Assembly: GCF_001512285.1 (NCBI RefSeq)
Contig: NZ_LNUV01000006.1
Location: 2,340,809 to 2,404,808 of the forward strand
Direction: 5' to 3'
Source: Arthrobacter sp. EpRS71
Lineage (GTDB): Bacteria; Actinomycetota; Actinomycetes; Actinomycetales; Micrococcaceae
Length of the DNA stretch: 64,000 nucleotides
The notes under the pieces are model-generated. The model was not told the DNA's origin. It searched no databases and saw nothing but the letters and a program-made list of their open reading frames with translations. Both the position numbers and the translations under genes were made by a program. Each line of letters begins with the position of its first letter. The stretch's first letter is position 1. This document shows, one piece after another, positions 7,478-51,302 of the stretch.

Positions 7478-8821
7478 CTAACTAGTTGTTGCGGAAACCG
7501 CGGTGTTGGTGCCTGCCGGCGTAAGGGCGCGGGCAGAGGAAGTGTTGGAGGTGGCCGGAACCAGCATCTCGAGGACGCGGATAACGCGGTCTTCGAAGCC
7601 TTTCGCGGACGGATCCGTGAGGTTGGCCAGCATGCGAACCACAAAGCGCATGAGCACGGGGATGGGCATGCCCGTGCGCAGTGCCAGCTTCATCACGGCG
7701 GGCTTCCCAATCAGCGAGGCAAACATACGGCCCAAGGTGAAGTGTGAACCCCACTGGTCCCGCACATAGTCCGCGTACCGCGAAAGGTGAGCATCGGCGT
7801 CGTGCGTGGACCATCCGGCAGAAGCCGAGCGCGACGAAGCGTCAATCAGGAACTCAGCGGCAAACCGGGCCGATTCCATCGCGTAGGAAATGCCTTCGCC
7901 GTTGAACGGGGACACCATGCCACCGGCATCGCCCAGCAGGAGCAGGCCGGGCGAGTAGTGCGGTGTGCGGTTGAAGCCCATGGGCAGTGCTGCGCCGCGG
8001 ATCTCCCCCACCTGGTTTTCCGGCGTGAAGCCCCACTCGGACGGCATGCCGGCGGTCCATTCACGCAGGACCTGTTTGTAGTCGAGCTTGCCGAATTCCT
8101 TGGAAGAGTTCAGGATGCCCAGGCCCACGTTGGAGGTGCCGTCGCCAACGCCGAACACCCAGCCGTAGCCGGGCAGCGGCTTACCGGATTTGCCGGGGAG
8201 TTCCAGCCAGCCTTCCATCCAGTCGTCGTCGTGCCGGGGCGAAGTGAAGTAGGTGCGCACAGCGACGCCCAGCGGACGGTCGTCGCGTTTGTGCATCCCC
8301 AGCGACACCGCAGTTCGCGTTGAGTTGCCGTCTGCGGCGAGGACGACGTCGGCGTGGAAGTCGCGCGTTTCGCCCGTCTTGCGTCCGGACTCGTCCAGGA
8401 TGGCAGCCTGGGCGCCAATGACGCGGCCATCCTCTGCAGTCAGTGCGGAGGTGACGCTGTGGCGTTCAAGCACGACGGCGCCCGCGGACTCAGCGTGGCG
8501 GGCCAGGTCCTCGTCAAAACCGAGTCGGGTCCGGATGAGGCCGTAGGTGGGAAAGTCGGCCACTTCGGGCCATGGCAGTTCGATGGTGCGGCCGCCGGCA
8601 ATAAGGCGAAGGCCCTTGTTGCGCCGCCAACCCTCCGAAACAGCATGCGGCAGTCCGAGCTTCTGGATTTCGCGGACGGCCCTGGGAGTGAGGCCGTCAC
8701 CGCAGACTTTTTCACGGGGGAAGGAGGTCTTTTCCAGCACCGTGACATCGATGCCCTGCTGGGCGAGGTAATACGCAGCGGTGGACCCGGCCGGGCCCGC
8801 GCCAACAATCAGTACTTTCAC
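7478..8821 (-). CDS. Geranylgeranyl reductase-family FAD enzyme
   Basis: A 447-residue flavoprotein. The N-terminus VLIVGAGPAGSTAAYYLAQ is the FAD-binding Rossmann motif (GxGxxG) and GLLLLGDAGGMVSPFNGEGI is the conserved GD motif that contacts the FAD ribityl chain. In actinobacteria such enzymes (MenJ type) saturate one double bond of the menaquinone side chain; others act on archaeal-type lipids or chlorophyll. Placement between menG and the polyprenyl synthase supports the menaquinone role. GTG start at 8821; 27 bp separate it from menG upstream. Confidence 0.87.
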   Translation of the reverse strand: MKVLIVGAGPAGSTAAYYLAQQGIDVTVLEKTSFPREKVCGDGLTPRAVREIQKLGLPHAVSEGWRRNKGLRLIAGGRTIELPWPEVADFPTYGLIRTRLGFDEDLARHAESAGAVVLERHSVTSALTAEDGRVIGAQAAILDESGRKTGETRDFHADVVLAADGNSTRTAVSLGMHKRDDRPLGVAVRTYFTSPRHDDDWMEGWLELPGKSGKPLPGYGWVFGVGDGTSNVGLGILNSSKEFGKLDYKQVLREWTAGMPSEWGFTPENQVGEIRGAALPMGFNRTPHYSPGLLLLGDAGGMVSPFNGEGISYAMESARFAAEFLIDASSRSASAGWSTHDADAHLSRYADYVRDQWGSHFTLGRMFASLIGKPAVMKLALRTGMPIPVLMRFVVRMLANLTDPSAKGFEDRVIRVLEMLVPATSNTSSARALTPAGTNTAVSATTS

Positions 8822-8848
8822 GACGTCCTCATCAACAGGCTGTGCTTG

Positions 8849-9610
8849 TTAGCCGGCTTGGTGGCGCGGCTTAATCTGGCGGCGGAGCTTGGCCACGGGA
8901 ACACTTTCGCGGTGCTCGGCGGGCTTTTGCGCACGGTGCACTGCAACGATGCCGCCACTGAGGTTCCGGTAGGTAACGTCCGTCCAGCCGGCGTCGCTGA
9001 GCCACTGGGCCAGGTGGTCCTGGTCCGGCCAGGCGCGGATGGACTCGGCGAGGTAAACGTAGGCGTCCGGGTTGGAGGAGACCTTGGTGGCGATGGCCGG
9101 GAGCGCGCGCATCAGGTACTCGGTATAGAGGTTGCGCCACAGGGGAACCACGGGGTGGGAGAACTCGGCGATGACCAGGCGGCCGCCAGGCTTGGTGACG
9201 CGCAGCATTTCCTCGAGGGCTTTCTTGGGTTCAACCACGTTGCGAAGGCCGAAGGAGATGGTGGAAGCGTCGAAGCTGTTGTCAGCGAACGGCAGGTTGG
9301 TGGCGTCCCCGGCAATGAAGTCGATGTCCGGGCGGCGGCGTTTGCCTACTTTGAGCATGCCCAGGGAGAAGTCGCATGCCACCACGTCCACGCCGGCGTC
9401 GGCGTAAGGTTCGCTGGATGTTCCCGTTCCGGCGGCGAGGTCCAGGACCTTCTGACCCACCTTGACGTCCATGGCGTCAACCACGATCCGGCGCCAACGC
9501 CGTGTCTGCCCCATGGACAGGACATCATTGACGACATCGTATTTTGGGGCGACATCATCAAACATCGTCGCAACTTCGTCCGGACGCTTTTCCAAGGATG
9601 CTCGGTTCAC
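8849..9610 (-). CDS. menG: Demethylmenaquinone methyltransferase
   Basis: A 253-residue SAM-dependent methyltransferase of the UbiE/MenG family that methylates demethylmenaquinone in the last step of the pathway. [18 protein letters not shown] near the N-terminus and [12 protein letters not shown] (SAM-binding motif I) are diagnostic, followed by FGLRNV, a family motif. Start is GTG 9610. It diverges from menF with 91 bp between start codons and heads the menG-reductase-polyprenyl synthase operon. Confidence 0.94.
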
Positions 9611-9701
9611 CCTGTAATTGTCTCAGACATTCACGCGACTTTGCTGCGCTGTAGAAGTCGGCTCAGATTCTGGCTGAACTCGGGAGTACTGTTGTTCCAT
9701 C

Positions 9702-11057
9702 ATGACGAGCACGCTCCGCACCTTGACAGTCCCCCTCGATGTTGAAACATCCTCCGGGGGGCTGCCGTCGTTTCTGGTGCGGGACGACGTCCTGTGCTGG
9801 TCCCGCCGCGAGGCCGGCCTGGTGGGTTACGGCGAGCTGACCCGCTTCAACGCCACGGGCCCCGAGCGATTCCTGGAGGCCGACATCTGGTGGCGGCACC
9901 TCATTATTGAGGCGGAAATCACGGATTTCGTGGAGGTCCCGGGCACCGGTCCGGTGGCCTTCGGCTCGTTTGCCTTCTCAAAAACCTCCCCGCACGTGTC
10001 GCGCTTGATCCTCCCCGAACTCGTGATCGGCATCCGCGACGGCCGCGCCTGGGCCACACAGCTGACGTTCGACGACGGCCCCCTCACCGAGGCGGGCGTC
10101 CTCGCCTCAGTTGACCGCTGGCTCACTGAGCCCGAGCCCAACGGCAACGGTTCAGCCAGCGGAGGGCCCGACGTCGGACTCTCACCGGACGCTGTTGCGG
10201 CGGACGGTTCGGCCGGTCACCTCAGCCACGGTTCCTTAAGCGAGACGGCGTGGATGCAGGCCGTTTCCAACGGCGTGCAGGAAATCCGCGCAGGAAAGCT
10301 GGAGAAGCTGGTGTTAGCGCGCGACGTCGTCGCTAACCTTCCGGAGGGCGTCAACGCTGCGGAGGTTCTTCGCCAGCTTGCTGCGAGGTACCGCGAATGC
10401 TGGACCTACGGCGTCGACGGACTGGTGGGTGCGACGCCGGAGATGCTGATTCAGGTGGAGGGCCGCACTGCGCAGGCGCGCGTGCTGGCTGGAACCTTGG
10501 ATCGCCGCGACGCGGACGGCATGGACGGCTCCCCCATGGAATATGCGGAACGGGTCCTTGCTGGTTCCGAAAAACAGCGCCACGAGCACGAGATCGCCAT
10601 TGATTCACTGACCCGGCAGCTCGCCCCTTTCTCCGAGGCGATGAATTCCCACAGCGAGCCCTTCATTCTGGAGCTGCCCAATGTGTGGCATCTGGCCTCG
10701 GACGTGAAGGCGGAGCTGGCTGACATCGAGGGACACGTTCCTACTTGCTTGGCGCTGATCAACGCCCTGCATCCCACAGCCGCCGTGTGTGGGACGCCCA
10801 CGTTGGTAGCCGGGGCACTGATCCGCAAACTGGAACATTTGGACCGCGGCCCATACGCCGGGCCGGTGGGTTGGCTGGACGCTGCCGGCAATGGCGAGTG
10901 GGGCATCGCACTCCGTGGCGCTGTCATTGAGGATGCCAACACGGTGCGCTTGTACGCGGGCTGCGGGATTGTGGAAGGTTCCGTGCCGGAGGCCGAATTG
11001 GCGGAAACGTGGGCTAAATTCCGGCCGATGCTGGAGGCGCTGGGCATCCAGCGTTAA
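9702..11057 (+). CDS. menF: Isochorismate synthase
   Basis: A 451-residue chorismate-utilising enzyme converting chorismate to isochorismate, the entry step to menaquinone. Family motifs seen: KLVLARDVV, GATPEMLIQ, LAGTLDRR, and near the C-terminus LHPTAAVCGTP and YAGPVGWLDAAGNGEW. The same fold occurs in salicylate synthases and in siderophore isochorismate synthases, but the men context makes MenF the best reading. ATG start; divergent from menG. Confidence 0.93.
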   Translation: MTSTLRTLTVPLDVETSSGGLPSFLVRDDVLCWSRREAGLVGYGELTRFNATGPERFLEADIWWRHLIIEAEITDFVEVPGTGPVAFGSFAFSKTSPHVSRLILPELVIGIRDGRAWATQLTFDDGPLTEAGVLASVDRWLTEPEPNGNGSASGGPDVGLSPDAVAADGSAGHLSHGSLSETAWMQAVSNGVQEIRAGKLEKLVLARDVVANLPEGVNAAEVLRQLAARYRECWTYGVDGLVGATPEMLIQVEGRTAQARVLAGTLDRRDADGMDGSPMEYAERVLAGSEKQRHEHEIAIDSLTRQLAPFSEAMNSHSEPFILELPNVWHLASDVKAELADIEGHVPTCLALINALHPTAAVCGTPTLVAGALIRKLEHLDRGPYAGPVGWLDAAGNGEWGIALRGAVIEDANTVRLYAGCGIVEGSVPEAELAETWAKFRPMLEALGIQR

Positions 11058-31854: not shown

Positions 31855-33081
31855 CTAATAGTTCCGCCGGTGCTTCAACCGCGGAATGGCGACGGCGAAC
31901 ACCACTGCCGCTGCGAAGCCCAGCACGCCTGTGGCCCAGACTCCCGCCGACAACGAGAATGCAGCCGTCAAGCCGGAGAGCAGCACTGGTCCTCCCGTGC
32001 CACCCGAATCGGCCATGAATCGCCAGATTCCCAAAAAGTGGCTCCGCCCGTTGTCCGGTGAAAAGTCAGCGCCGAGCGTCATAATGAGCCCGGAACTGAT
32101 GCCGTTGCCGAACCCGATCAGCAAAGCAACCAAGAGGAGCGGGACGAATCCGGCAGTGAAGGGAATCAAGATCAGCGCGGTTCCCATGATCAACGTTGAC
32201 GGGATGGCCACCCATTGACGCCCCTTCCTGTCCATGAGTTTCCCCGCAGGGTAAAACACCAGCATGTCGATCGCTCCGGACAATCCGAAGATCAAGGAAG
32301 CATGGGTGGCGTCGAGCCCCAGATGATCGGCCCACAACGGGATGACCACCTGCCGCGATGCTCGCAAGGCACTCAGCAAGAGAATGCCGAAGCCCACTGT
32401 CAGGAACACGCCGGCATGGGAAACCGCGACGCTCCGCAAGGTGGACGCAGGAGGCCGGGGACCGCCGTCGGACGTTCCGGGGGCCACCAGGTCCGGAATG
32501 GTGAGCGACAAAACAGCCGCAGCCAGCATGCCCCCAAAGCCCACCCAGTAAGCACCGCTGATACCGGCGAACTGCATCACGCCTGCCCCCACGAAGGGCC
32601 CTATGAACAAGCCGATCCTGGTAACGCCGCCCAGCGTTGATAGGGCTCGGGCGCGAAACATGACGGGCACGGCCTCGGTGAGGAATTTCTGCCGTGCAAG
32701 GTTGAAGACGCTGGCCGACATACCCACCAACGTCATGGAGGCGGCCAGCAACCACAGGCCATGGTCCATTTGCGGGGCGAAAGCTGCCGCGCCAAGGGCA
32801 ATGGCACCCACAGCTCCGGCCCCCACAATCGACCAACGCTCACCGAATTTTTCCGTGATGATCGACGCCGGGATGTTGAACAACCACGAGCCCAAACCGA
32901 TCAACGTCACGATCAATGCCGATACTGCCACCGACGCGCCGAGGTCGCGTGCTGAGAGGGCAATGACCGGAAGGACAGCCCCCTCGCCGACACAGAAGAG
33001 CACAGCTGGCCCGAATGCCGGAACCGCTACGCTGCGAAGGCTGAAGTTTTTGTCTGCTTGGGTGGTGGTCATCCCTTTCAT
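31855..33081 (-). CDS. MFS transporter
   Basis: A 408-residue major facilitator with about twelve membrane segments. The loop 2-3 signature is degenerate, whereas loop 8-9 shows PAGKLMDRKGRQWVAIPS, a clear MFS motif A copy. Probably a drug or metabolite exporter; substrate unknown. Start ATG 33081 (MKGMTTTQADK) is used; ATG 33072 is an equally possible start. Confidence 0.87.
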   Translation of the reverse strand: MKGMTTTQADKNFSLRSVAVPAFGPAVLFCVGEGAVLPVIALSARDLGASVAVSALIVTLIGLGSWLFNIPASIITEKFGERWSIVGAGAVGAIALGAAAFAPQMDHGLWLLAASMTLVGMSASVFNLARQKFLTEAVPVMFRARALSTLGGVTRIGLFIGPFVGAGVMQFAGISGAYWVGFGGMLAAAVLSLTIPDLVAPGTSDGGPRPPASTLRSVAVSHAGVFLTVGFGILLLSALRASRQVVIPLWADHLGLDATHASLIFGLSGAIDMLVFYPAGKLMDRKGRQWVAIPSTLIMGTALILIPFTAGFVPLLLVALLIGFGNGISSGLIMTLGADFSPDNGRSHFLGIWRFMADSGGTGGPVLLSGLTAAFSLSAGVWATGVLGFAAAVVFAVAIPRLKHRRNY

Positions 33082-33159
33082 CCTATGACCGCCGTCCCTG
33101 GGTTCGGGCGGCATGACGTTGCGTGCTGGTACGCAGGGCCCGGCTGCGCTACCCGTTCC

Positions 33160-33265
33160 GCCCAGCGCCCCCTTTCGTGGTCCGGACCGCACCACTACGC
33201 GCCAAGCGCACCAGAGGTAACAGGGGCGAACGGCGGGTACGGTAGCGACGAAGTGGGAAAGCGCC
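33160..33265. repeat. GC-rich intergenic repeat, locus 3
   Basis: Contains ACCGCACCACTACGCGCCAA, GCGCACCAGAGGTAACAGGG, GCGAACGGCGG and ACGGTAGCGACGAAGTGGG, in the same order as the locus at 13.9 kb. Confidence 0.6.
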
Positions 33266-33276
33266 GAGATGCTCGC

Positions 33277-33314
33277 AGTTGTTGCGGCTCCGGAACGTCG
33301 GAGCCGCAACAACT
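33277..33314 (-). terminator. Hairpin downstream of the chaplin-like gene
   Basis: AGTTGTTGCGGCTCCG (33277-33292) pairs perfectly over 16 bp with 33299-33314, loop GAACGT. It lies 29 bp beyond the stop codon; there is no strong U-tract. Confidence 0.78.
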
Positions 33315-33342
33315 ACATGCGAAGTGAGATTAATTCCTCGGC

Positions 33343-34980
33343 TTAACGGCTGTTGGCTGCTGCCTTGCGGCGACCGACTAGTGCGAGCACGAGCCCCATC
33401 AGGAGAAGGCCTCCTGCCAAGAGAATCCACTGACCGTTCAGGCCGGTGTTGGCCAACGTGTTGGCACTTCCGACGGCGGTGGGAGCTGCCGCGGTCCATG
33501 CACCTTGCGCGGCACTTTGGGCCATCACATTGCTGGCTTGGGTGCCGACGCCGGTGCTAACTCCGATACTGGCGGGAGGATTCACAACCGGCGGGTTCAC
33601 AACCGGAGGATTCACAACCGGCGGGTTCACAACCGGAGGATTCACAACCGGCGGATTCACCACCGGAGGATTCACAACCGGCGGATTCACCACCGGAGGA
33701 TTCACAACCGGCGGATTCACAACCGGAGGATTCACCACAGGCGGGTTGACCGTGGCTGTAGAACCTCCACCAATTCCCACCGAGGTGGAACCAAGAGTGA
33801 CAGGCGCCGTGATCGGGACGATCAGCTGGGTGCCGGAAAGGATTCCGTCGCTGCCGGAGGTGGTGCTGCCGGTGTTCGTGCCCGTCGGGGCACCTCCGCC
33901 GGTCGAGCCCGAAGTACCGGTACCCGTGTTCGTGGCGGATGAGTCACCCAGCAGGCCAGCAGAGGTGGCACCCAGGTTGATCGGAGCCGTTACCGGAGCA
34001 ACAACCTGCGTCCCCGAACCAATGCCATCCGAACCCGAGGTAGTGCTGCCGTTGTTCGTGCCCGTCGGGGCATTTCCGCCGGTCGAGCCTGAAGTACCGG
34101 CGCCGGTGTTCGTGGCGGATGAGTCACCCAACAGACCAGCTGAGGTCGAACCCAGGTTGATCGGAGCCGTAATCGGAGCAACAACCTGCGTTCCCGAACC
34201 AATGCCATCCGAACCCGATGTGGAAGCACCGGAAGCGGCAGGAGCCGATGTACCCGAGGAAGCAGCCGAGCCCGAGGTAGCGGCGGAATCTCCGCCAACA
34301 CCCACGGCAGTGGCTCCGATGTTAACAGGGACCGAAATCGGAGCCACTACCTGAGCGCCGGACGCGATACCCTCTCCCCCCGACGTCGTTGCCTGCGCCG
34401 GAGCCGCAACAGGAGCCTGGGCCGGTGCAGGAGTTGAAGATGTAGCAGCCGAGTCGCCAAGGACACCGGCGGATGTGGCTCCCAGTGTGATGGGCACCGT
34501 CACCGGAGCCACTACTTGGGTTCCCGAGGCGATCCCATTGGAACCGCTGGTGCTGGCTGCCGGCGAAGGAGCCGCGGGTGCGGCAGGTGTGGCTGAGCTC
34601 GCCGCAGTGGAGCCCCCCAGCAGACCCACTGACGACGAGCCCAGGTTGATGGGCACCGTTACCGGAGCAACTATTTGCGTTCCGGAGCCGATGCTGTTGG
34701 AACCGCTGGTGCTCGCAGCCGGAGTTGCGCCCGAACCAGCCGCACTCGAACCTGCAGCAGGTGCCGGCGCGGACGTCGTAGCTGCTGAATCCCCCAACAG
34801 TCCAAGTGATGTTCCGCCGATGCTGATCGGCGCTGTTACTGGCGCCACCACTTGCGTACCGGACAGGAGTCCGTCCTTGCCGCTGGTGGTGTCCGCGGCG
34901 TTTGCCGCAGTGGCGCTGAGGACGATCATGCCCCCGGCAAAGCATGTGCCGATGAGGCACTTGCGTATGGTCGTGTTCAT
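33343..34980 (-). CDS. Chaplin-like repeat surface protein with LANTG sortase anchor
   Basis: A 545-residue secreted protein. A signal peptide (MNTTIRKCLIGTCFAGGMIV to ANAA) is followed by seven ~50-residue repeats, each with the core GSGTQVVAPVTAPINLG then TSAGLLGDS. The core resembles streptomycete chaplin domains (SGNxxxxPVxxPVNVCGNxxxxxG), but the cysteines are absent. Next comes an array of about eleven PVVNP pentapeptides, then SANTLANTG, a hydrophobic segment (WILLAGGLLLMGLVLALVG) and a basic tail (RRKAAANSR). That end is a sortase signal of the LAxTG class used by actinobacterial sortase E. It should therefore be displayed on the wall, lifted by the proline array. The chaplin comparison is from memory and moderate. 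Confidence 0.8.
   Translation of the reverse strand: MNTTIRKCLIGTCFAGGMIVLSATAANAADTTSGKDGLLSGTQVVAPVTAPISIGGTSLGLLGDSAATTSAPAPAAGSSAAGSGATPAASTSGSNSIGSGTQIVAPVTVPINLGSSSVGLLGGSTAASSATPAAPAAPSPAASTSGSNGIASGTQVVAPVTVPITLGATSAGVLGDSAATSSTPAPAQAPVAAPAQATTSGGEGIASGAQVVAPISVPVNIGATAVGVGGDSAATSGSAASSGTSAPAASGASTSGSDGIGSGTQVVAPITAPINLGSTSAGLLGDSSATNTGAGTSGSTGGNAPTGTNNGSTTSGSDGIGSGTQVVAPVTAPINLGATSAGLLGDSSATNTGTGTSGSTGGGAPTGTNTGSTTSGSDGILSGTQLIVPITAPVTLGSTSVGIGGGSTATVNPPVVNPPVVNPPVVNPPVVNPPVVNPPVVNPPVVNPPVVNPPVVNPPVVNPPVVNPPASIGVSTGVGTQASNVMAQSAAQGAWTAAAPTAVGSANTLANTGLNGQWILLAGGLLLMGLVLALVGRRKAAANSR
33581..33746. repeat. 15-bp in-frame tandem array coding PVVNP
   Basis: About eleven consecutive 15-bp units of the type TTCACAACCGGCGGA, alternating two variants, inside the chaplin-like gene. 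The length is a multiple of three throughout, so copy-number changes would keep the frame. Confidence 0.95.
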
Positions 34981-35078
34981 TGTGATTCTCTCCTGAAGAG
35001 GTTGTTCCCAAAGGCGTCCGAGTGACGGATCGCCCGAATGACCATCTACCGCGAAGAGCTGCGCGGCTGGCTGGGGAA

Positions 35079-36173
35079 CTAGTCAGGAGAGGAACCGGGG
35101 TCGAAGCACACCGGCTTTGGATGTTGCTCAGTCGCGGCCGACGCCACACCGGGCAGTGCGTCAACGGGAATGATCAGGGCGCCCTGCAGGAACGCTGCTG
35201 CGGGGCTGGGTGGGCCGTTTTGGGAGCTGCCGGAGCCAGCACCAGTCAGGCTGCCGGGCACTGCGGCGGGGTCGGAAGGGAGTTCCGCAGGTGACGTGGG
35301 ATCGACGGGTGCAGAGGAGGCTCTCAGCACAGCGGTGATCCCCGTGGGACCAAAATTTCGAGCGGGATTCAGGAGCGCTGATGCGCCGGCGTTCACGCCT
35401 GACGAAGCCCCGCTGGAGTTCAGTGTGCCGGGCTCGGGAACCGTTGAGTTTGTGGAATGTACGACGCCGGTAGTCGCCGGAGCGCCAGCGTTCACCGCGG
35501 CCTGACCACCAGCAGCGTCAGTTCCCGGCTCGCTGGGAACCTCAACCGCGGGTGCTGTGACCGGGGGTGTTGTGACTGGCGGTGCAACGGCCGGCGGTGC
35601 AACGACTGGCGGAACCGGCGGAGCTACCACCGGCGGAATGACGGTTTCAACGGGAGCCAGCACGGTGTCCACCACGCCAACAATGGGATCCACAACCGGG
35701 TTCACCACGTTGGTGATGGGTTCAAGCCGAGCCGGTTCCAAAACTTGATTCACCGGCGGCACAACCACGTTGACGGTGTGATCCACGACGTTGGTGACAG
35801 GAGCCACCACCGTGTTCACCACAGTCCCCGTGGTGTCCGGCGGAACCACCTGGTTGACCACGGGCACCGCTGCAACCACCTGATCAACCGTACCGCCAAG
35901 ATGTTCCACAAGGGGTGTTACGGCAGGCACATTGACGTTGATCTGATTGGTGGTTATTACACCTTTGACCACGTTTGGCAGCGGTACGTTCGGCACCGGA
36001 ACACTGATGGATGTTGAGGACGTGACACTGCCCAAGAGGTTGTTTTCAGGGGTTCCGGTGTCTGCGCTTGCCGCCGAGGCGGAGAGAGCCATCCAGATTG
36101 CGGTTCCGGCGCCCGCGACCATGACGGAGCGGAGAATGCTGGTAGCACGCGGGAATACGCGTGAACCCTTCAT
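35079..36173 (-). CDS. Secreted valine/proline-rich protein
   Basis: A 364-residue protein with a signal peptide (SVMVAGAGTAIWMALSASA, cleavage near ASADT). Residues ~45-210 are built of short VxPV/NxVV strands (NVPLPNVVKGVITTNQINVN, TNVVDHTVNVVVPPVNQVLE), then a proline-rich stretch and a less ordered C-terminal part ending KPVCFDPGSSPD. No sortase signal or membrane anchor. I do not recognise a domain. It is upstream of the chaplin-like gene on the same strand (98 bp gap) and shares its composition, so the pair may function together on the surface. Confidence 0.78.
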   Translation of the reverse strand: MKGSRVFPRATSILRSVMVAGAGTAIWMALSASAASADTGTPENNLLGSVTSSTSISVPVPNVPLPNVVKGVITTNQINVNVPAVTPLVEHLGGTVDQVVAAVPVVNQVVPPDTTGTVVNTVVAPVTNVVDHTVNVVVPPVNQVLEPARLEPITNVVNPVVDPIVGVVDTVLAPVETVIPPVVAPPVPPVVAPPAVAPPVTTPPVTAPAVEVPSEPGTDAAGGQAAVNAGAPATTGVVHSTNSTVPEPGTLNSSGASSGVNAGASALLNPARNFGPTGITAVLRASSAPVDPTSPAELPSDPAAVPGSLTGAGSGSSQNGPPSPAAAFLQGALIIPVDALPGVASAATEQHPKPVCFDPGSSPD

Positions 36174-36287
36174 CTCGACACCCCCAGGTAGTCGCGAACC
36201 ATTGGTCGCCTTCATCCTAGGACGGCATCACGCGGTTAGTCCATGGTTGGGAGTAAACAAAATGACAAATTTGTAAGGAACCTTGTT

Positions 36288-37178
36288 TTACGAAGGGTAA
36301 AAGCCTGTCTTTTCCGGTCCAAAGTCCGGAGTGGCCACAGAAGGACGCCCTTGAGCATTGGTTTCCTGAAGCCTCTTAATGAACCAACGTGACTGTTCCG
36401 GTCCGTAAGGCAGCACCGGGATGGCCTTGGTGGCGTCGGACGGCATGTCCCGAATGGACTGCGTCGCTTGCCGGACCGCCGTGCCCATGGTGTCAGCCAT
36501 GGTTTTGACGAACTCATCGCTGGCAGGTTCACCGTGACCGGGGACCAGGAATTCGTAGCGGTGGCGCAGGGCCGAGATGTGCCGCAGGGCATCGGCCCAT
36601 TCCTCCGGATACGAGTCTTCAAACGACGGATGCGCACCCTGCTCCACCAGGTCACCCACGAACAGGGTGGAGCTGGTTCCAACAAGGAGGTCGCCGTCCG
36701 TGTGTGCGCGGCCCAGGTAGAAGAGCGTAGCGGTGATGCCGCCCAGATCAACGAGGACAGGCTGATCGTGCACCAAGGCGTTGGGGACAACGATGTCCAC
36801 CGCGTCACCCTCTCCCGCTGCCATCTCGGGTTCGTTGGTGGCTACGAAGCGTCGCTGATTGTCGGCGTCGCGTTCAATAGCGGCCGCACAGTTGGCGTGC
36901 GCCCAGAACTCTGTGACGCCGTCGTCGGCAAATACTGCGTTGCCAAAGAAGTGGTCGTAGTGGGCGTGGGTGTTCACCACAACCAGCGGAAGCTGGGTCT
37001 TTTCGCGGACTGCTGCGAGGATCTCGCGGCCTTGGCGCGGGCCGCAGCCGGTGTCGATGACCATGGCGAGCTCAGAGCCCACCACCAGGCCGGTATTGAG
37101 TAACGATCCCTCGGTTTCCAAGACGTAGTTGTCCTGTCCGAGTTCTAGCCAAGCTGACAATTCGTGCTCCGTATCCAC
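36288..37178 (-). CDS. MBL-fold metallo-hydrolase
   Basis: A ~296-residue metallo-beta-lactamase-fold protein. THAHYDH (HxHxDH, about residues 71-76) is the zinc/iron site; later ligands fit GRAHTDGDLLVG, LFVGDLVEQGAH and VPGHGEPA. No signal peptide. Start is uncertain: GTG 37178 is used, and TTG 37160 after ACGGAG is a good alternative. Longer frames run through the terminator of the neighbouring protease gene and are rejected. Substrate unknown. A possible role as quinoprotein-relative or thioesterase-type hydrolase cannot be distinguished. Confidence 0.85.
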   Translation of the reverse strand: MDTEHELSAWLELGQDNYVLETEGSLLNTGLVVGSELAMVIDTGCGPRQGREILAAVREKTQLPLVVVNTHAHYDHFFGNAVFADDGVTEFWAHANCAAAIERDADNQRRFVATNEPEMAAGEGDAVDIVVPNALVHDQPVLVDLGGITATLFYLGRAHTDGDLLVGTSSTLFVGDLVEQGAHPSFEDSYPEEWADALRHISALRHRYEFLVPGHGEPASDEFVKTMADTMGTAVRQATQSIRDMPSDATKAIPVLPYGPEQSRWFIKRLQETNAQGRPSVATPDFGPEKTGFYPS

Positions 37179-37291: not shown

Positions 37292-39514
37292 TTACAGGAA
37301 GGCGTTCATGGTATTCCAGCCGACGCCGACCTGCTCGGAGTACAACCACCAGCTGTAGCCGTTGCCGGCGTACAGGACCAGTTCTCCGCCGCTGTTGCGT
37401 CCAAGAACGTCCACCTTTCCGTCGCCGTCGAAGTCGCCCGGCGCTTCAATGGCGTTGAAGATGTTCCAACCGGTTCCCACCTGGCTGGCTGCAAGCCACC
37501 CACCGGAGCCGTTGCCCGGGTAGAGCAGCAAGGCTCCTGATCCGTTGCGGGCAATGACGTCAGCTTTGCCGTCGCCATTGAAGTCGCCTACGCCGTCGAT
37601 GGCGGTCATCACGTTCCAGCCGGCACCAATCTGGCGCGGCTGGAGCCAGCCACCGGTTCCATTGCCCGCGTACAGCCACAGAACACCATTGCCATCGCGG
37701 GCAATAACATCGGCAGTCGCATCGCCGTTGAAATCACCCGTTGATTTGATGGACGTCATCACGTTCCAGCCGGCACCGATCTGGGTGCGGCCGAGCAAGC
37801 CACCCCATCCGTTGCCCGGGTACAGCCACAGAACACCGTTGCCGTCACGGGCAATGACGTCGGCATAACCGTCGCCGTTGAAGTCGCCCGGCGCTTCGAC
37901 GGCGGTCATAACGTTCCAGCCGACGCCGATTTGGGTGCGGCCGCCCCTCCAGTTGCCGTAGCCGGTTCCCTTGTAGAGCCACAAGGCGCCGTTGGCGTCA
38001 CGAGCAACAACGTCGCTGGTGCCGTCGCCATTGAAATCGGTGAGCTTTTGGTGCGGTGCAGGGAGAGGAGCGGCGCCACCGAACTTTTTCAACGCCTTCG
38101 TGGCGTCTACCAAACCCGCACCACAGCCAGCGGAGCAACCGGCCGGAAGGGGCCGAGCTGATTCCTTGAGCTGCTGTTCGAGCAGCTGGGGCGTGAGCGT
38201 GCTGCCTTCAGCCGAGAAGAGCAGAGCCGCGATGCCTGCAACGTGAGGAGACGCCATGGACGTGCCCTGCATGAACGCAAAAGCGGGTTCATTCGGCGTG
38301 GTGGTGCCGTAGTTCAACGTGGACAAAATGCCACCGGCGACATCTGTTGTCATGTCGCCGCCAGGCGCCGTCACGTCAATGGCACTTCCGTAGTTGGAAT
38401 ACGCTGCGCGCGCGCCGGCCTTGGTGCTCGCCGCCACGGTGATGACGTTTTGGCAGTTACCCGGGCTGACGTCAGCGGCAGGTCGGTCGGAGTTTCCTGC
38501 AGAGACCACCACAGCGGCACCTGCGTTGTACGCAAAGTTGATGGCGTTCTGGTAGGTGGCGGAGCATGTTGCCACGCCACCGAGGCTGATGTTGATGACC
38601 TTTGCCGGATGGGGGTTGACGGGAAGGTCAGTCACCACCCCGCCAGCTGCCCAGATGATGGAGTCAGCGATGTCGGAGCTGTACCCTCCACAGACGCCCA
38701 ACGCCCGCACCGGAAGGATCTTTGCCTTGGGCGCTACGCCACTGATGCCAATGCTGTTGTTTCCAACGGCGGCCACAATTCCTGCCACGTGCGTTCCGTG
38801 CCATGAAGAATTTTCAGCGGGGCTTTTGTCCTCACATTCCCCTGCTGGAACCCAGTCGCCTTGGTCGGTGGGGTCCGGATCGCGGCCGTTTCCGTCCCGC
38901 GCGTCAGCTGCGCTGGAGATCATGTCGTAGCCGGGCAGCACGTTCGCGTTGAGCTCCGGGTGGCTGGTGATGCCGGTGTCAACGATTGCCACCACCACGC
39001 CCTCGCCCTGGTTGTAGTTCCAGGCGCTGGGAGTGCGGACGCCGGCGAAGTTATCCCACAGGTTCCATTGCTCCGTGTAGCCGTAATCCTTGGAATGGAC
39101 CGTGGGGTGCATGATGACGTCCGGCTCCGCGTAAGCGACGGCCGGGTCAGCGCGGAGCATCTCCACGAAGACTGCAGCTTCCGACGGTGTGAGGGCTTCG
39201 TCGAGCTTGATGATGTGCCCGCCCGCGGCGTTTTGGCGCGAGCTTTCCCTCGAGACACCCAGCTTGGCAGCTGCTTGGTCGGCCGCCTTCTCGGCTTTCA
39301 CCGCAGCTGTTTGAGCAGCGTTGTCCCGAAGGCCAACAATGAACTGGTCCGTAGCCGTTTCGGGTGTCGGCTGGAGGGCTTGCGGGGTGCTCGGAACGAT
39401 GTCATTGAGATCGGCCGCGGCCGCTGGCTGAACGGCCAGTCCCCCGCTGACAAGAAGTGTGGTTACTGCTATGCCTATGGAACTTAGCGGGCGCAGTCGG
39501 AAGTTTTTCACCAT
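37292..39514 (-). CDS. Secreted S8 serine protease with FG-GAP repeats
   Basis: A 740-residue exported subtilase. Signal peptide residues 1-34, then an I9-type propeptide (DQFIVGLRDNAAQ, residues ~56-135) that should be removed on maturation. Catalytic Asp179 (VDTGI), His239 (WHGTHVAG) and Ser419 (GTSMASPHVAG) with oxyanion Asn341 (SAGN) are intact. Residues ~515-740 are six ~45-residue repeats (DFNGDGYADVIARDGNGVLW type), FG-GAP/VCBS blades with DxNGDG calcium sites. No anchor, so it is released to the medium. ATG 39514 chosen at the start of the signal peptide. Confidence 0.95.
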   Translation of the reverse strand: MVKNFRLRPLSSIGIAVTTLLVSGGLAVQPAAAADLNDIVPSTPQALQPTPETATDQFIVGLRDNAAQTAAVKAEKAADQAAAKLGVSRESSRQNAAGGHIIKLDEALTPSEAAVFVEMLRADPAVAYAEPDVIMHPTVHSKDYGYTEQWNLWDNFAGVRTPSAWNYNQGEGVVVAIVDTGITSHPELNANVLPGYDMISSAADARDGNGRDPDPTDQGDWVPAGECEDKSPAENSSWHGTHVAGIVAAVGNNSIGISGVAPKAKILPVRALGVCGGYSSDIADSIIWAAGGVVTDLPVNPHPAKVINISLGGVATCSATYQNAINFAYNAGAAVVVSAGNSDRPAADVSPGNCQNVITVAASTKAGARAAYSNYGSAIDVTAPGGDMTTDVAGGILSTLNYGTTTPNEPAFAFMQGTSMASPHVAGIAALLFSAEGSTLTPQLLEQQLKESARPLPAGCSAGCGAGLVDATKALKKFGGAAPLPAPHQKLTDFNGDGTSDVVARDANGALWLYKGTGYGNWRGGRTQIGVGWNVMTAVEAPGDFNGDGYADVIARDGNGVLWLYPGNGWGGLLGRTQIGAGWNVMTSIKSTGDFNGDATADVIARDGNGVLWLYAGNGTGGWLQPRQIGAGWNVMTAIDGVGDFNGDGKADVIARNGSGALLLYPGNGSGGWLAASQVGTGWNIFNAIEAPGDFDGDGKVDVLGRNSGGELVLYAGNGYSWWLYSEQVGVGWNTMNAFL

Positions 39515-39854
39515 ATGCAGGCATCCTAGGGAAAGCGCGGGCAGCCTCAACGGGGCTGATCGCGGGCAACTGGAGACCACCAGCTGACCCCCAGGAAATT
39601 GTAAGCTGACTATCGGCTGTAAAAGCTACACATCGCCGTTTATGACAGTGGTCCGAAATCCTCATTGTTGAACCACTCAGCTAACGCGCTCGAACACCAT
39701 GGGCCCGGATACGGTCACCGCCGCCGATCACTCCCATACTCCTGCCGCTGGCAGTTGCACCACTTCCATCCATTGTTGGCCGGCCGCACGTCTGTTGGGC
39801 GGTTGCGTGCAAGGCTACTCGACGCCGGCGGGGAATTTTTCGCGGGCGAAGCGC
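39515..39854. other. 340-bp gap, no gene seen
   Basis: Between the starts of the subtilase transcript and the end of the VOC gene. It should contain the subtilase promoter; I see no convincing reading frame or strong repeat. Confidence 0.6.
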
Positions 39855-47404: not shown

Positions 47405-47546
47405 AAGGCGTCAAGGGTTTGGCACTTTACTTTGGCAGCCCCATATTCCCGGGCGGCCATCCGAAGAGTAAGGTGGGCCACCCCACCATCAGGCGTTCGC
47501 GTGCAAGGTCCGTTTGTAGCCGGTGGAGCTCGAGCGAGGCGGCATC

Positions 47547-50500
47547 ATGGCATCATTCAGCTCTTCAGTGCCGGCGCATCTGGGCATTTTCGTCACGGAT
47601 CCGGACACGGGACGCCCGGTCCAGCGCCTGCCGCTCTATGCGGAAGTTGCGGTTCCGCGGATAATTCCACCACCGCCGATCAACGAACGGTATCGGGAGC
47701 CCCTGCGCGCAGCCATAATAAGCGTGGACTCCTCCGCCACCGGTCCCAGTCGCGACAGGGTGGAGAATGCGGCCCTACGGGCTCTGGCTTCCACCATAAG
47801 TAAGGAAAGCCGCGAGCGACTGATAACTCAAGGTCCGGTCGTGAAAGACCTGTTCCAAGAAGCTCTCAAGAGTGTGTTGGAGGCGGCGGGCCGTGAGCGC
47901 CTTTCAGAGATTCCCGTGGCTGACTTGGAACGCCTCATGGCGGACGCGGTACGGACATCGGCTTCTCGACGAGGTCTTGAAACTGAGTCTGAGGTTCCGG
48001 ACCAAGGCGCGTTGTGGGCGGAGCCGCTAGGTGTACTGGCCACCGACCACATGGGGTACGTGTCGTTCGATCTTCGGAGACTGGGAACTGACGTCCAGTT
48101 GATGCTCTCGGAGGCCATTGAAGCCCGCCAGCTGGGCAAAGGACCATCATCCAACTTAGCCATTTGGATCTATCCCAGCGGCCATTCGGGCAGGTTCGAT
48201 GCGCTGGATCAGGCCCGCTTTTCCTCCGACGCCATACTCGCCCGGCTGAAAGTATCGTGGCATACCCTGCCGCCCTCGCTGATCAACATGGGCCCGCGCG
48301 CACTCCAAAATCCCAGCCTCACAGACTGGAGGCTCTCACCCGCCTCGTTTGCAGCAACTCCCACCACGCTCCTCGGAGCAGACGGTTGCGAGGAGATGGT
48401 TCCCTCGAACCTGGCGCTGCAGGAATTCGTCCTCCGCCAAGTGGTGCGACTGGTGGAAGTACCCCCAAATTTCGGCGTTCCGCAGGAGTTTAAGGCCGCC
48501 TACGTAGACGACTACAAAGTCACTTGGTTCTCCCTCGGTCATTCCCTCGGCGAGATTCTCTACAGCTTGCCGCTGGCACCTGGGGAGAGCGTGAAGCTGG
48601 CCGTGATCGACTGGTCCTGGGACAGCCTCGCAAAGCGTGACGAGAAAACTAGAATGACCGAAGAGTTGCTGCATCAGACCCACCGAGACCGCACCATTTC
48701 CGAGACGGTCAAGGCCGGGCTCAAAGAACTTCAACACGGGAGCTCGTTTATGGCGGGCGCCGCTGGATCATCGGGTGCCACAGGAGGCGCCAATCTGGGG
48801 GTCGTGGGGCTGGGTGCCGCCGTGGGAAACACCTGGAGCTTGGGAGGATCCACGGCTACCAGCGACGGAAGCAGGGATCTAGCGGCGGAGAACGTCCAAC
48901 GGCTGAACGACAGCTTTTCGCAGGCCAGCTCATCTCAGCGTGAAATCAACTCAACAGTTGTCATCCAGGCCCGCCAGGAGGAAAAGGAAAGTATCCAGAC
49001 CCGCACCTTCTCGAACTATAACCACAGCCACACCTTGACGATCCTCTACTACGAGGTGCTGCGGCACTACCGGGTGACTGTTGAGTGGGTCCGCCGTCGC
49101 CCCTCCGTGCTGGTCCAGATGTCGCTAAGCCTCCCTCAGGTTCTGACGCCGAAAGCACTTCTCCTCAGAAGATTCCAACTCGAACCCTTCCTTCTCGATC
49201 AAAAGCTGTCGGCAGCTTTCGACGCTGTCGCTCGAGTGGTATTGGGTGAGGAAAAACTGAAGCGCGAAGTGGAGAAGTGGGGTGCGAACACCCAGACGAC
49301 CGACCCGGGTGCAAAGCTCTTCGTCAAGCTCATTGCCCAGTTCACCACCACCTCCGACGATACGTCGGAACCGGTCTTCGTGGTACTCCATCTACTCGAC
49401 GGACGGATTTTCGAGTTCCAATGCGATGGTGCTGGCGAGGAGGGAACCTCCCCCGAATTCGAGAAAACCCTACCTGTCGCTATCCCTTGGAAAGACATCA
49501 GAGGCATCGAAGTAAAACTTAAGGACATCAACTCGGGCGGTGACTGGCAAGAGTCGAACATCCTGGTGACGATGCTGACGGTCGAGAACGAGCGAATCAA
49601 TATACTCGCTGATTCCGGCACCCGGACTTTGGATGATGCCGGTGGGAGCACCGGGTTGCTCCCTTCGAAACAATCTCCTTCAGCGACCACAACCACTGTG
49701 GGACTCAAACCAAACCGTAATGACTTCGTTTCGGCCGAAGACGATGTGGCTTTGCAGAATCTAGTCGCCCACTTGGATACGAACCGTGGCTACTACAACA
49801 GCGTCCTTATGCTCGGAACGGATGCAAACACGATCGCCAAGGATTTCGAGAAGAAGCAATGGTCGCCAGGGCAGGTCATGTCCGACCACGTCGACCCCAC
49901 ACCCTTGGAAGTGTTCGGAAGCTACGTGGCCTATGGGCTGGCCAAGCAAACCTCCGCAGTGGACGACGCCACGGTGGTGGACATCGCCGCGGCACTGAAC
50001 GGCACCGACCCTACCCGACGCCAATGGGCCACCTCCGTTCTTGCAGCGTTGAGTGAGCAGGACCGGCAGACTGTACTTGAGCGGTTGCCGCTGGCCTCGG
50101 CGAAGTCCGAGCGGCTGATATCCATGCCAACCCGGGGAGTCTTCGCTGAAGGCAAGCTCGGCCACTGCAACGTCTCAGAAGAGATCGATAACACACGCTT
50201 CTGGAAGTGGGACGAGCACCCCATACCTATCGATGCGCCGGGCATCAACCCGGTCACGCCTATTCAACCTCAACCGGAGCAACCCGGCGTGGCGCCCACA
50301 CCATTCCCACCTGCAGTAGTGAACATCGTCAGTCCCAGCCCGGCTCCTGATCCCGGCGGACTCGCGGCGGCGCTATCTCTCCTGGGGACGCCGAACATCT
50401 TCCGTGACATGTCAGGGCGCCAAGAAGTAGCGGACCTGTTGAAGAAGCTTTCCGACAACACCATTGCGATCGCAGAGGCTGCCAATAAGGCCCGGGACAT

Positions 50501-51302
50501 CCAGGCCAAATACGGGATGGGGCTGGATAAGCAGGAGAAAGACGCCGAATTGGGTACAACGCAAGCCGGGGCTGAGGTTGCCAAAGAATTGATCAGGCAA
50601 CGGCGGGATGAAGCACAACAAGTCTCGCCCAGCCAGGCGCAGGACGCCATCAAACTGTCTGAGTCCGAGACGCGCAAGGGCAATAAGTCACCAGAAGAGC
50701 ACCAGGACTACAGCAAACAGGTCCAGCAAAATGTCCAAGGCGCCAAACCAGTCCGCAAGTCCAAGAGCACCATCAAACTCAACGTCGATCTCAAGGGCTA
50801 TGGCAACAATCTCCTGATCGGCCGGTTCGGCATTGATGTCAGACAACGTGGAGCCTCGGTAGGTTTTCTGACAGCCACGGATTACTCGAGGCAGGGCCAG
50901 CTGGAAGTTGGAGTCACCAATGAATACGACGACCCGCGTTACTCTCTTGAGATCAACGGCGAAGTTCTAGGCGGCGTAGGCATCAACGCCGAGCTCCGAG
51001 GTCGGGGCGTAGTCCAGATCCCCCGCGAAGACTTCGACCTGTACGACTACTTCTATCTTGTGGCCACGGCAGAGTATGGCGAGTTCGACGTCGAGACGAC
51101 CAAGAGCGACGAGGTGTCCGAGGAAGTGGCCAAGAAGTTGGGCGGCGGAGTGGATCTCGCCTACAAACAGATCATCACGATGAAGACCGAGGGCGGCATC
51201 GAATGGAAGGACGGCAAAAAGCACACTTCTGCCTCTGCCGTGAAAGTGAAGGTGGTCTATTACACGGGTGGAATCACTGTGAGCTATAGCAAAAAGCCTT
51301 AG
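47547..51302 (+). CDS. Large protein of unknown function (1251 aa)
   Basis: The largest gene of the window, with no signal peptide and no transmembrane segment. An N-terminal ~130 residues are helical. ADGCEEMVPSNLALQEFVLR, SLGHSLGEILYSLPLAPGES and a NYNHSHTLTILYYEVLRHYR segment follow, around a glycine/serine-rich stretch that could look like a short membrane-interacting segment (MAGAAGSSGATGGANLGVVG). After a Thr-rich linker, GVFAEGKLGHCNVSEEIDNT and RFWKWDEHPIPIDAP are striking aromatic motifs. A proline linker, a coiled-coil-prone region (~990-1080) and a beta-rich C-terminus (IKLNVDLKGYG onward) complete it. I do not recognise a named family. Start ATG 47547 follows GAGG; GTG 47523 is possible. 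Confidence 0.85.
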   Translation: MASFSSSVPAHLGIFVTDPDTGRPVQRLPLYAEVAVPRIIPPPPINERYREPLRAAIISVDSSATGPSRDRVENAALRALASTISKESRERLITQGPVVKDLFQEALKSVLEAAGRERLSEIPVADLERLMADAVRTSASRRGLETESEVPDQGALWAEPLGVLATDHMGYVSFDLRRLGTDVQLMLSEAIEARQLGKGPSSNLAIWIYPSGHSGRFDALDQARFSSDAILARLKVSWHTLPPSLINMGPRALQNPSLTDWRLSPASFAATPTTLLGADGCEEMVPSNLALQEFVLRQVVRLVEVPPNFGVPQEFKAAYVDDYKVTWFSLGHSLGEILYSLPLAPGESVKLAVIDWSWDSLAKRDEKTRMTEELLHQTHRDRTISETVKAGLKELQHGSSFMAGAAGSSGATGGANLGVVGLGAAVGNTWSLGGSTATSDGSRDLAAENVQRLNDSFSQASSSQREINSTVVIQARQEEKESIQTRTFSNYNHSHTLTILYYEVLRHYRVTVEWVRRRPSVLVQMSLSLPQVLTPKALLLRRFQLEPFLLDQKLSAAFDAVARVVLGEEKLKREVEKWGANTQTTDPGAKLFVKLIAQFTTTSDDTSEPVFVVLHLLDGRIFEFQCDGAGEEGTSPEFEKTLPVAIPWKDIRGIEVKLKDINSGGDWQESNILVTMLTVENERINILADSGTRTLDDAGGSTGLLPSKQSPSATTTTVGLKPNRNDFVSAEDDVALQNLVAHLDTNRGYYNSVLMLGTDANTIAKDFEKKQWSPGQVMSDHVDPTPLEVFGSYVAYGLAKQTSAVDDATVVDIAAALNGTDPTRRQWATSVLAALSEQDRQTVLERLPLASAKSERLISMPTRGVFAEGKLGHCNVSEEIDNTRFWKWDEHPIPIDAPGINPVTPIQPQPEQPGVAPTPFPPAVVNIVSPSPAPDPGGLAAALSLLGTPNIFRDMSGRQEVADLLKKLSDNTIAIAEAANKARDIQAKYGMGLDKQEKDAELGTTQAGAEVAKELIRQRRDEAQQVSPSQAQDAIKLSESETRKGNKSPEEHQDYSKQVQQNVQGAKPVRKSKSTIKLNVDLKGYGNNLLIGRFGIDVRQRGASVGFLTATDYSRQGQLEVGVTNEYDDPRYSLEINGEVLGGVGINAELRGRGVVQIPREDFDLYDYFYLVATAEYGEFDVETTKSDEVSEEVAKKLGGGVDLAYKQIITMKTEGGIEWKDGKKHTSASAVKVKVVYYTGGITVSYSKKP

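Follow-up and report, generated by a model that had tools for sequence, protein, structure and literature searches.

A chaplin-related repeat protein with a sortase motif and its linked secreted-looking partner in Arthrobacter and other Micrococcales

Organisation of the locus

The window analysed here, a stretch of 64,000 nucleotides, is part of contig C6 of the Arthrobacter sp. EpRS71 genome (4.85 Mb, 10 contigs). It harbours two adjacent genes, referred to below as VP and CHP, with the following features.

35079..36215, minus strand: VP (P0002), secreted-looking partner rich in Val and Pro, 378 aa
35082..35120, minus strand: C-terminal motif of VP, PKPVCFDPGSSPD, near-invariant in close relatives, with ..PD at the end in nearly all
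34981..35078, minus strand: region between the two genes, holding two conserved hairpins and the CHP ribosome-binding site
33343..34980, minus strand: CHP (P0001), putatively anchored chaplin-like repeat protein, 545 aa
34897..34980, minus strand: signal peptide region of CHP, residues 1-28, MNTTIRKCLIGTCFAGGMIVLSATAANA, assigned by eye and alignment
34786..34875, minus strand: CHP core 1, residues 36-65
34609..34698, minus strand: CHP core 2, residues 95-124
34450..34539, minus strand: CHP core 3, residues 148-177
34285..34374, minus strand: CHP core 4, residues 203-232
34120..34209, minus strand: CHP core 5, residues 258-287
33940..34029, minus strand: CHP core 6, residues 318-347
33760..33849, minus strand: CHP core 7, residues 378-407
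33574..33747, minus strand: NPPVV stalk of CHP, about residues 412-469, low-complexity sequence
33442..33456, minus strand: LANTG sorting motif of CHP, residues 509-513, then a predicted helix (516-543) and the basic tail RRK

The putative signal peptide of CHP, clear by eye, is strongly conserved across relatives and precedes seven cores of about 30 residues each, starting at about residues 36-40, 95-99, 148-152, 203-207, 258-262, 318-322 and 378-382. The mature protein lacks cysteine, both cysteines of the ORF being located in the signal peptide, in agreement with the initial annotation of this DNA, which had described seven cysteine-free cores of the chaplin type. The stalk and the LANTG-type wall-sorting end proposed there were likewise found, as (NPPVV)n and as the LANTG motif with its hydrophobic helix and RRK tail. 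The NCBIfam model LPXTG_anchor gave 15.3 bits on CHP, 0.6 below its cut-off of 15.9, and a Pfam match of the stalk to Extensin_1, below its cut-off and in low-complexity sequence, was set aside. The nearest named loci belong to Arthrobacter sp. MYb23, 9V and M2012083 and to one Paenarthrobacter MAG (identity of 97-99% within the N-terminal 70 residues), and the gene is present in P. aurescens TC1 as well. Judging from the names of its nearest relatives, the host is presumably a rod-coccus. The plasmid search returned no match.

Two sortases are encoded in the same genome, one of class C and one of class E, the latter class preferring LAXTG. The class E enzyme matched NF033747 with 250.5 bits (cut-off 160), which answers in the affirmative the check for such a gene named beforehand. 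Its presence is not discriminating, since a class E sortase scored above the cut-off in 52 of 59 genomes, the host included.

For VP, an internal ATG at 36173 suits the relatives better as a start codon. Its tail is nearly invariant in the genus of the window (P.PVSFDPGSSPD) and reads FDPGSSPD or a variant elsewhere, and the body is poorly conserved, with a mean column identity of 28%. The AlphaFold2 model of VP is mostly disordered (mean pLDDT 55.8, pTM 0.31), with helices predicted at residues 22-47, 100-116, 126-162 and 175-185. VP thus represents a conserved family with no match above cut-off in Pfam (four members scanned) or NCBIfam (P0002 itself); two partner proteins gave sub-cut-off Pfam matches, to DUF6987 (12.7 bits, cut-off 26) and pAdhesive_17 (15.9 bits, cut-off 27), which were set aside.

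The two hairpins between the genes are well preserved, 99% of the cells pairing across 14 close sequences. In these 14 gaps, changes on both sides of the stem occurred in 2 of 14 pairs, a figure equalled by 199 of 500 shuffles; in 21 more distant gaps they occurred in 3 of 10 pairs, a figure without shuffle control. A regulatory role of the hairpins was considered and left aside in view of this weak covariation support, and an Rfam scan of positions 33000-37000 of the window gave no match.

In four close relatives, some or all of the flanking genes are shared, with an MBL-fold gene adjoining the pair in all four. The window also encodes a secreted protease of the S8 type with FG-GAP-like repeats after it (37292-39580, minus strand; named by eye), and such a gene has stayed close to the pair in the nearby relatives G023, G033 and G008, with a weaker match on the opposite side in G034. 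An ORF of 1259 aa is located at 47523-51302 on the plus strand.

Relationship of the cores to the chaplin domain

A profile search against the chaplin family had been suggested from the outset. The Pfam family ChpA-C (PF03777) matched CHP over seven stretches with 64.9 bits (E 5.9e-18; cut-off 21), and the chaplin relationship claimed in the initial annotation is supported by this match, by a chaplin HMM tested against shuffled sequences and by a profile-profile comparison. In a genome-wide PF03777 scan at E up to 10, seven of the ten matches fell inside the CHP ORF (9.8-21 bits each) and the other three scored 10.3-12.1 bits; at the same threshold, matches were obtained in 5 of 14 control genomes, none of them above the cut-off. 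Because each single core scores weakly, no match remains in the host genome at E ≤ 0.001. For the same reason the survey at that threshold, in which 11 of the 296 sampled genomes of the phylum were positive (eight large genomes from a single genus, each having 6-15 matches, and three Micrococcales with partial domains), undercounts the Micrococcales type, the host genome included. Searches with P0001 itself gave matches in 23 of 59 genomes (the host and 58 relatives), some being merely stalk-like low-complexity matches.

The chaplin HMM was built from 15 distinct domains of large-genome actinomycetes, picked by a cysteine-containing pattern from loci of genomes with strong PF03777 matches. CHP scored 48.2 bits against it; the highest scores of shuffled sequences were 10.0 bits for 1000 composition shuffles (918 returning any score) and 12.8 bits for 1000 repeat-keeping shuffles (992 returning any score). 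Comparison by hhalign of Micrococcales cores with the chaplin domains gave a probability of 96.6 (E 6.7e-10, 27 columns, 44% identity), the core set, 187 cores from named relatives including the seven of the window, having been gathered by a motif which itself resembles the chaplin core and so favours the match.

In the alignment made by eye, the chaplin consensus reads SGNVVQVPVHVPVNVCGNTVDVIG, the Microbacterium core (L104) GGTQVTAPITAPVTVGGNAISLTG and the core of the window SGTQVVAPVTAPINLGATSAGLLG. From the chaplins to the window, the cysteine is replaced by glycine and the NPAFGN.C end is absent. PMC13251363 defines chaplins by three GN motifs spaced 12-13 residues apart; none of the three occurs in any of the seven CHP cores, the second being retained in the Microbacterium relatives. 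CHP is therefore filed as chaplin-like rather than as a strict chaplin, since it lacks the GN and cysteine features. Whole-protein PF03777 scores were 110-114 bits in the three Microbacterium proteins scanned, 77.6 in Arthrobacter sp. YD4, 62.8 in P. aurescens and 49.7 in Okibacterium, and the corresponding protein of Pseudarthrobacter polychromogenes obtained no score. Locus L013 (genome G027, same genus) encodes chaplin-like repeats in which a cysteine pair, placed much as in chaplins, occurs in the last repeat alone (VNVGCN...KNCGS); this protein is possibly an intermediate. By sequence comparison, then, CHP is a genuine, diverged member of the chaplin domain family.

Conservation and variation of the gene pair

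The named genomes were scanned with the first 70 residues of CHP (alignment A3, 21 rows) and the best 80 of 86 relatives were kept. Although these loci were fetched by CHP alone, a VP-type gene lies directly upstream in all 80 of them, which span Arthrobacter, Paenarthrobacter, Pseudarthrobacter, Microbacterium and Okibacterium (L099, titled Planococcus, is probably a mislabelled or mixed record), and it does so even where the CHP repeats have diverged beyond recognition. The first automatic rule, an open frame of more than 200 residues (more than 60 at a contig end) ending in PD or PG, recovered the partner at 76 of the 80; at L095, L104 and L123 it lies in other frames, and at L132 the match began inside the gene. 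Taking 79 loci together, the partner ends in PD in 78 and in PG in one, with SPD in 74, and the gap to CHP measures 81-125 nt. The signal peptide of L149, kept outside this list, is in a different frame from its match; there too a partner ending in FDPGSSPD is followed by the signal peptide.

The linkage holds in the reverse direction as well. Among 35 regions around partner or P0001 matches, the C-terminal motif of VP was present in 31, and by rule a CHP-type gene follows in 30 of these; in the exception, L075, a GTG-start frame of 1562 residues begins 80 nt after the partner gene (downstream of 9017). As for the four regions without the motif, L054 has a partner whose end reads differently, at L057 a diverged Val/Pro-rich gene ending in SPG precedes the repeat protein by 84 nt (36.6 bits against the partner profile, with a composition bias of equal size), L076 was fetched by a stalk-like match and L077 lies at a contig end. 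Ten further genomes matched the partner profile (G000, G052 and four weak distant genomes being left out), and in eight of them an anchored-type gene with a signal peptide lies 82-141 nt downstream; none was seen in the two weakest, G259 and G303.

A broad partner profile was positive in 32 of the 59 genomes; 37 of the 59, the host included, belong to the window's genus, and these account for 30 of the positives. Of 297 genomes from the order, a narrower profile matched 11. Across the phylum 8 of 396 genomes matched, four of them weakly and in incomplete genomes; these four, outside Micrococcales (<90% complete, E 1e-6 to 5e-4), were taken as compositional. The VP profile had no match in seven canonical-chaplin genomes, of eight such genomes. 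VP, which the initial annotation had overlooked, is the most constant element of the system. The larger finding, and the new one here, is that CHP is one half of a conserved two-gene unit.

By comparison, CHP varies considerably. According to the core model, the 15 closest named loci (L078-L092) have 6-9 cores, against 7 in the window, and the range over all loci in which any were counted is 1-12. The chaplin model detects cores in 50 of the 80 named loci; in the other 30, mostly of the Pseudarthrobacter type, the signal peptide is kept, a LAxTG-type tail is kept in most of the complete proteins, and the repeats, in those inspected, are DVNLG-like. The frame in the place of CHP ranges from 66 to 1562 aa. 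At L053 (8584-8781), L067 (7182-7412) and L068 (6993-7223), CHP is reduced to 66-77 aa, the signal peptide running straight into the membrane tail, with LANTG retained in L067 and L068 and absent in L053; the partner is intact in all three, and their genomes carry a second, long pair (L066, L058 and L064). Given the core-less loci and, in some loci, anchored-type genes of only 66-123 aa, it is not the cores that stay constant.

Contig ends truncate 11 of the 80 named proteins. In the whole set, 77 have no cysteine past residue 32 of the frame read (the exceptions being L096, L121 and L130). A LAxTG/LPxTG-type motif occurs in the last 70 residues of 60 of the 69 uncut proteins; at least two of the nine without it are frameshifted (L082, L149). 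The coding sequence of the putatively anchored protein changes frame in L044 (G033; 8787-9962 onward, in the repeats) and in L149 (just after the signal peptide), which may reflect assembly or sequencing errors.

The gene pair of the window was also compared with 10 of the 80 named relatives by a Nei-Gojobori-type script, the dN/dS values coming from pairwise alignments of partly low-complexity sequence. They were 0.09-0.20 for the cores and 0.23-0.37 for the linkers, the cores being lower in all 10 comparisons, so that the CHP cores are under purifying selection. The signal peptide gave 0-0.17 (0 in eight of ten), the partner body 0.18-0.28 and the last 14 partner codons 0-0.04 (9 computable pairs).

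Predicted fold, possible function and known systems

The AlphaFold2 model of CHP, built with 34 sequences, has a mean pLDDT of 57.5 and a pTM of 0.49 and gives each of the seven cores four strands, with a spacing that is the same from core to core. Inside the cores, 10-residue pLDDT means range from 64 to 81 in cores 1-5, with lower edge blocks, from 59 to 74 in core 6 and from 46 to 64 in core 7; the signal peptide, linkers and stalk are mostly at about 60 or lower. A Foldseek search of the PDB with this model returned nothing at E ≤ 0.001, the 20 chains listed being what we take to be largely stacked-strand proteins. When 22 chains were aligned by VIA-align, curli CsgA (8c50_A) ranked first (Z 9.6, rmsd 3.9 over 160 residues, range 48-413 of a low-confidence model), ahead of a runner-up with Z 8.1 and rmsd 10.6; for repeats, a Z under about 13 may reflect mere common arrangement. 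SufB/SufD, pectinase-like, ice-binding, antigen 43 and Awp1 chains (rmsd >10) were discarded as sharing the strand-stacking arrangement only. Structure predictors favour stacked strands in repeats, and the CsgA match to the modelled cores is regarded as suggestive.

The reading we prefer, which we hold to be about evenly balanced between right and wrong, is that CHP and VP constitute a two-gene surface unit of Micrococcales, in which a sortase-anchored, beta-rich and possibly amyloid coat or adhesin is accompanied by a dedicated secreted partner. The product of VP, the first gene, would be secreted with its fixed C-terminal tail, and the strict pairing together with that tail points to a role in the assembly or export of CHP. 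CHP, the second gene product, would itself be exported; the class E sortase, whose gene lies elsewhere in the genome, would cleave it at LANTG and link it to the wall, as the architecture of CHP and the enzyme gene suggest. The seven strand-forming cores, which are related to the chaplin domain but have diverged from it, would be held at a distance from the wall by the NPPVV stalk. Going by the structural model, these cores may stack on each other or on those of neighbouring molecules, giving a layer or fibre that is rich in beta structure and probably amyloid-like and would make the surface hydrophobic or sticky, by analogy with the long chaplins of Streptomyces. A more specific version, in which a widespread two-component system builds wall-linked fibres from cysteine-free, chaplin-derived cores folded into an intrachain, curli-like beta-solenoid that sortase E anchors, and in which the VP tail (FDPGSSPD or variants) nucleates, chaperones or caps the fibre, is put forward tentatively and considered rather unlikely.

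It is possible, if doubtful, that the chaplin-derived protein is no longer amyloid and serves as a flexible adhesin or spacer on the wall, rich in repeats; its cores would bind a different surface or polymer, and slippage would change the number of repeats. The loss of the GN motifs and cysteines, the low-complexity linkers and stalk with their low pLDDT, the core number varying from 6-9 among the closest loci to 1-12 overall, and the unrecognisable repeats of Pseudarthrobacter-type loci would all suit such a protein; the stronger purifying selection on cores than on linkers and the one predicted strand pattern common to all cores argue against it. The near-invariant C-terminus of VP next to a frame of 66 to 1562 aa, and the three loci that keep VP beside a CHP cut down to signal peptide and membrane tail, could also be taken to mean that VP is the functional product and CHP merely its wall tether or export companion. 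This we consider improbable, given the 28% column identity, the dN/dS of 0.18-0.28 and the mostly low-confidence model of the VP body.

Finally, short Val/Pro/Thr-rich repeats, single cores of which reach only 9.8-21 bits, might resemble chaplins by convergence or composition without common descent. Such an origin is very hard to reconcile with the 48.2 bits of CHP against at most 12.8 in 2000 shuffles of two kinds, with the hhalign E value of 6.7e-10 and with the graded series leading to Microbacterium, where the second GN is retained and scores reach 110-114 bits. Under the preferred two-gene surface unit, chaplin-type domains belong to the cell surface of bacteria of the Arthrobacter and Microbacterium types, which are not known for aerial hyphae. 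This bears on the open question of the role of chaplins before aerial growth, for which PMC4255298 suggests attachment as an older function, and the strictly linked VP gene offers a handle for testing it.

Earlier accounts of the pair or of chaplins in Micrococcales were looked for in a literature collection that largely excludes subscription journals; among the papers listed, only PMC4255298 concerned chaplins of Arthrobacter. In the part of PMC5043138 seen, "Chaplin" is an author name, and in that of PMC12520557 chaplins appear in a table only; both were discarded. The accessible text of PMC4255298 (2013) reports chaplin-like proteins in the non-sporulating rod-coccus Arthrobacter chlorophenolicus and describes no repeats, partner or anchor for them; they are possible counterparts of CHP.

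The predicted fold of CHP, a repeat of stacked strands, may resemble that of curli CsgA, its best structural match. CsgA is exported by the curli secretion route; CHP bears a wall-sorting signal, and no sequence relationship was seen, a search of solved structures (PDB) with P0001 giving no match up to E 1. Outside Streptomyces, CwpA and CwpB of Actinoplanes missouriensis are hydrophobic substrates of a class E sortase; according to PMC13251363, the authors detect no chaplin domains in the two proteins, and the sortase concerned seems to use LPVTG. As regards the cysteines, the initial annotation had proposed that a cysteine-free version would be a new type; the absence of cysteines stands, and the claim of novelty goes too far, since ChpE of S. 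coelicolor is, according to PMC3079736, already a cysteine-free amyloid, cysteines being dispensable for fibrils in vitro. Cysteines are thus not strictly defining for chaplins, but ChpE, unlike CHP, is short, unanchored and of a single domain.

The closest known counterparts are the long chaplins ChpA-C of S. coelicolor (PF03777), which likewise combine several chaplin-type domains and a C-terminal sorting signal with a class E sortase in the genome, and which have a signal peptide where CHP has a putative one. CHP differs from them in lacking the cysteines, the GN motifs and the NPAFGN.C domain end, and in belonging to a group not known for aerial hyphae, unlike the hosts of ChpA-C. It carries seven domains instead of two, has an added NPPVV stalk and is paired with the secreted-looking VP, a partner that went undetected in the seven (of eight) canonical-chaplin genomes mentioned above and accompanies CHP throughout the named Micrococcales loci.
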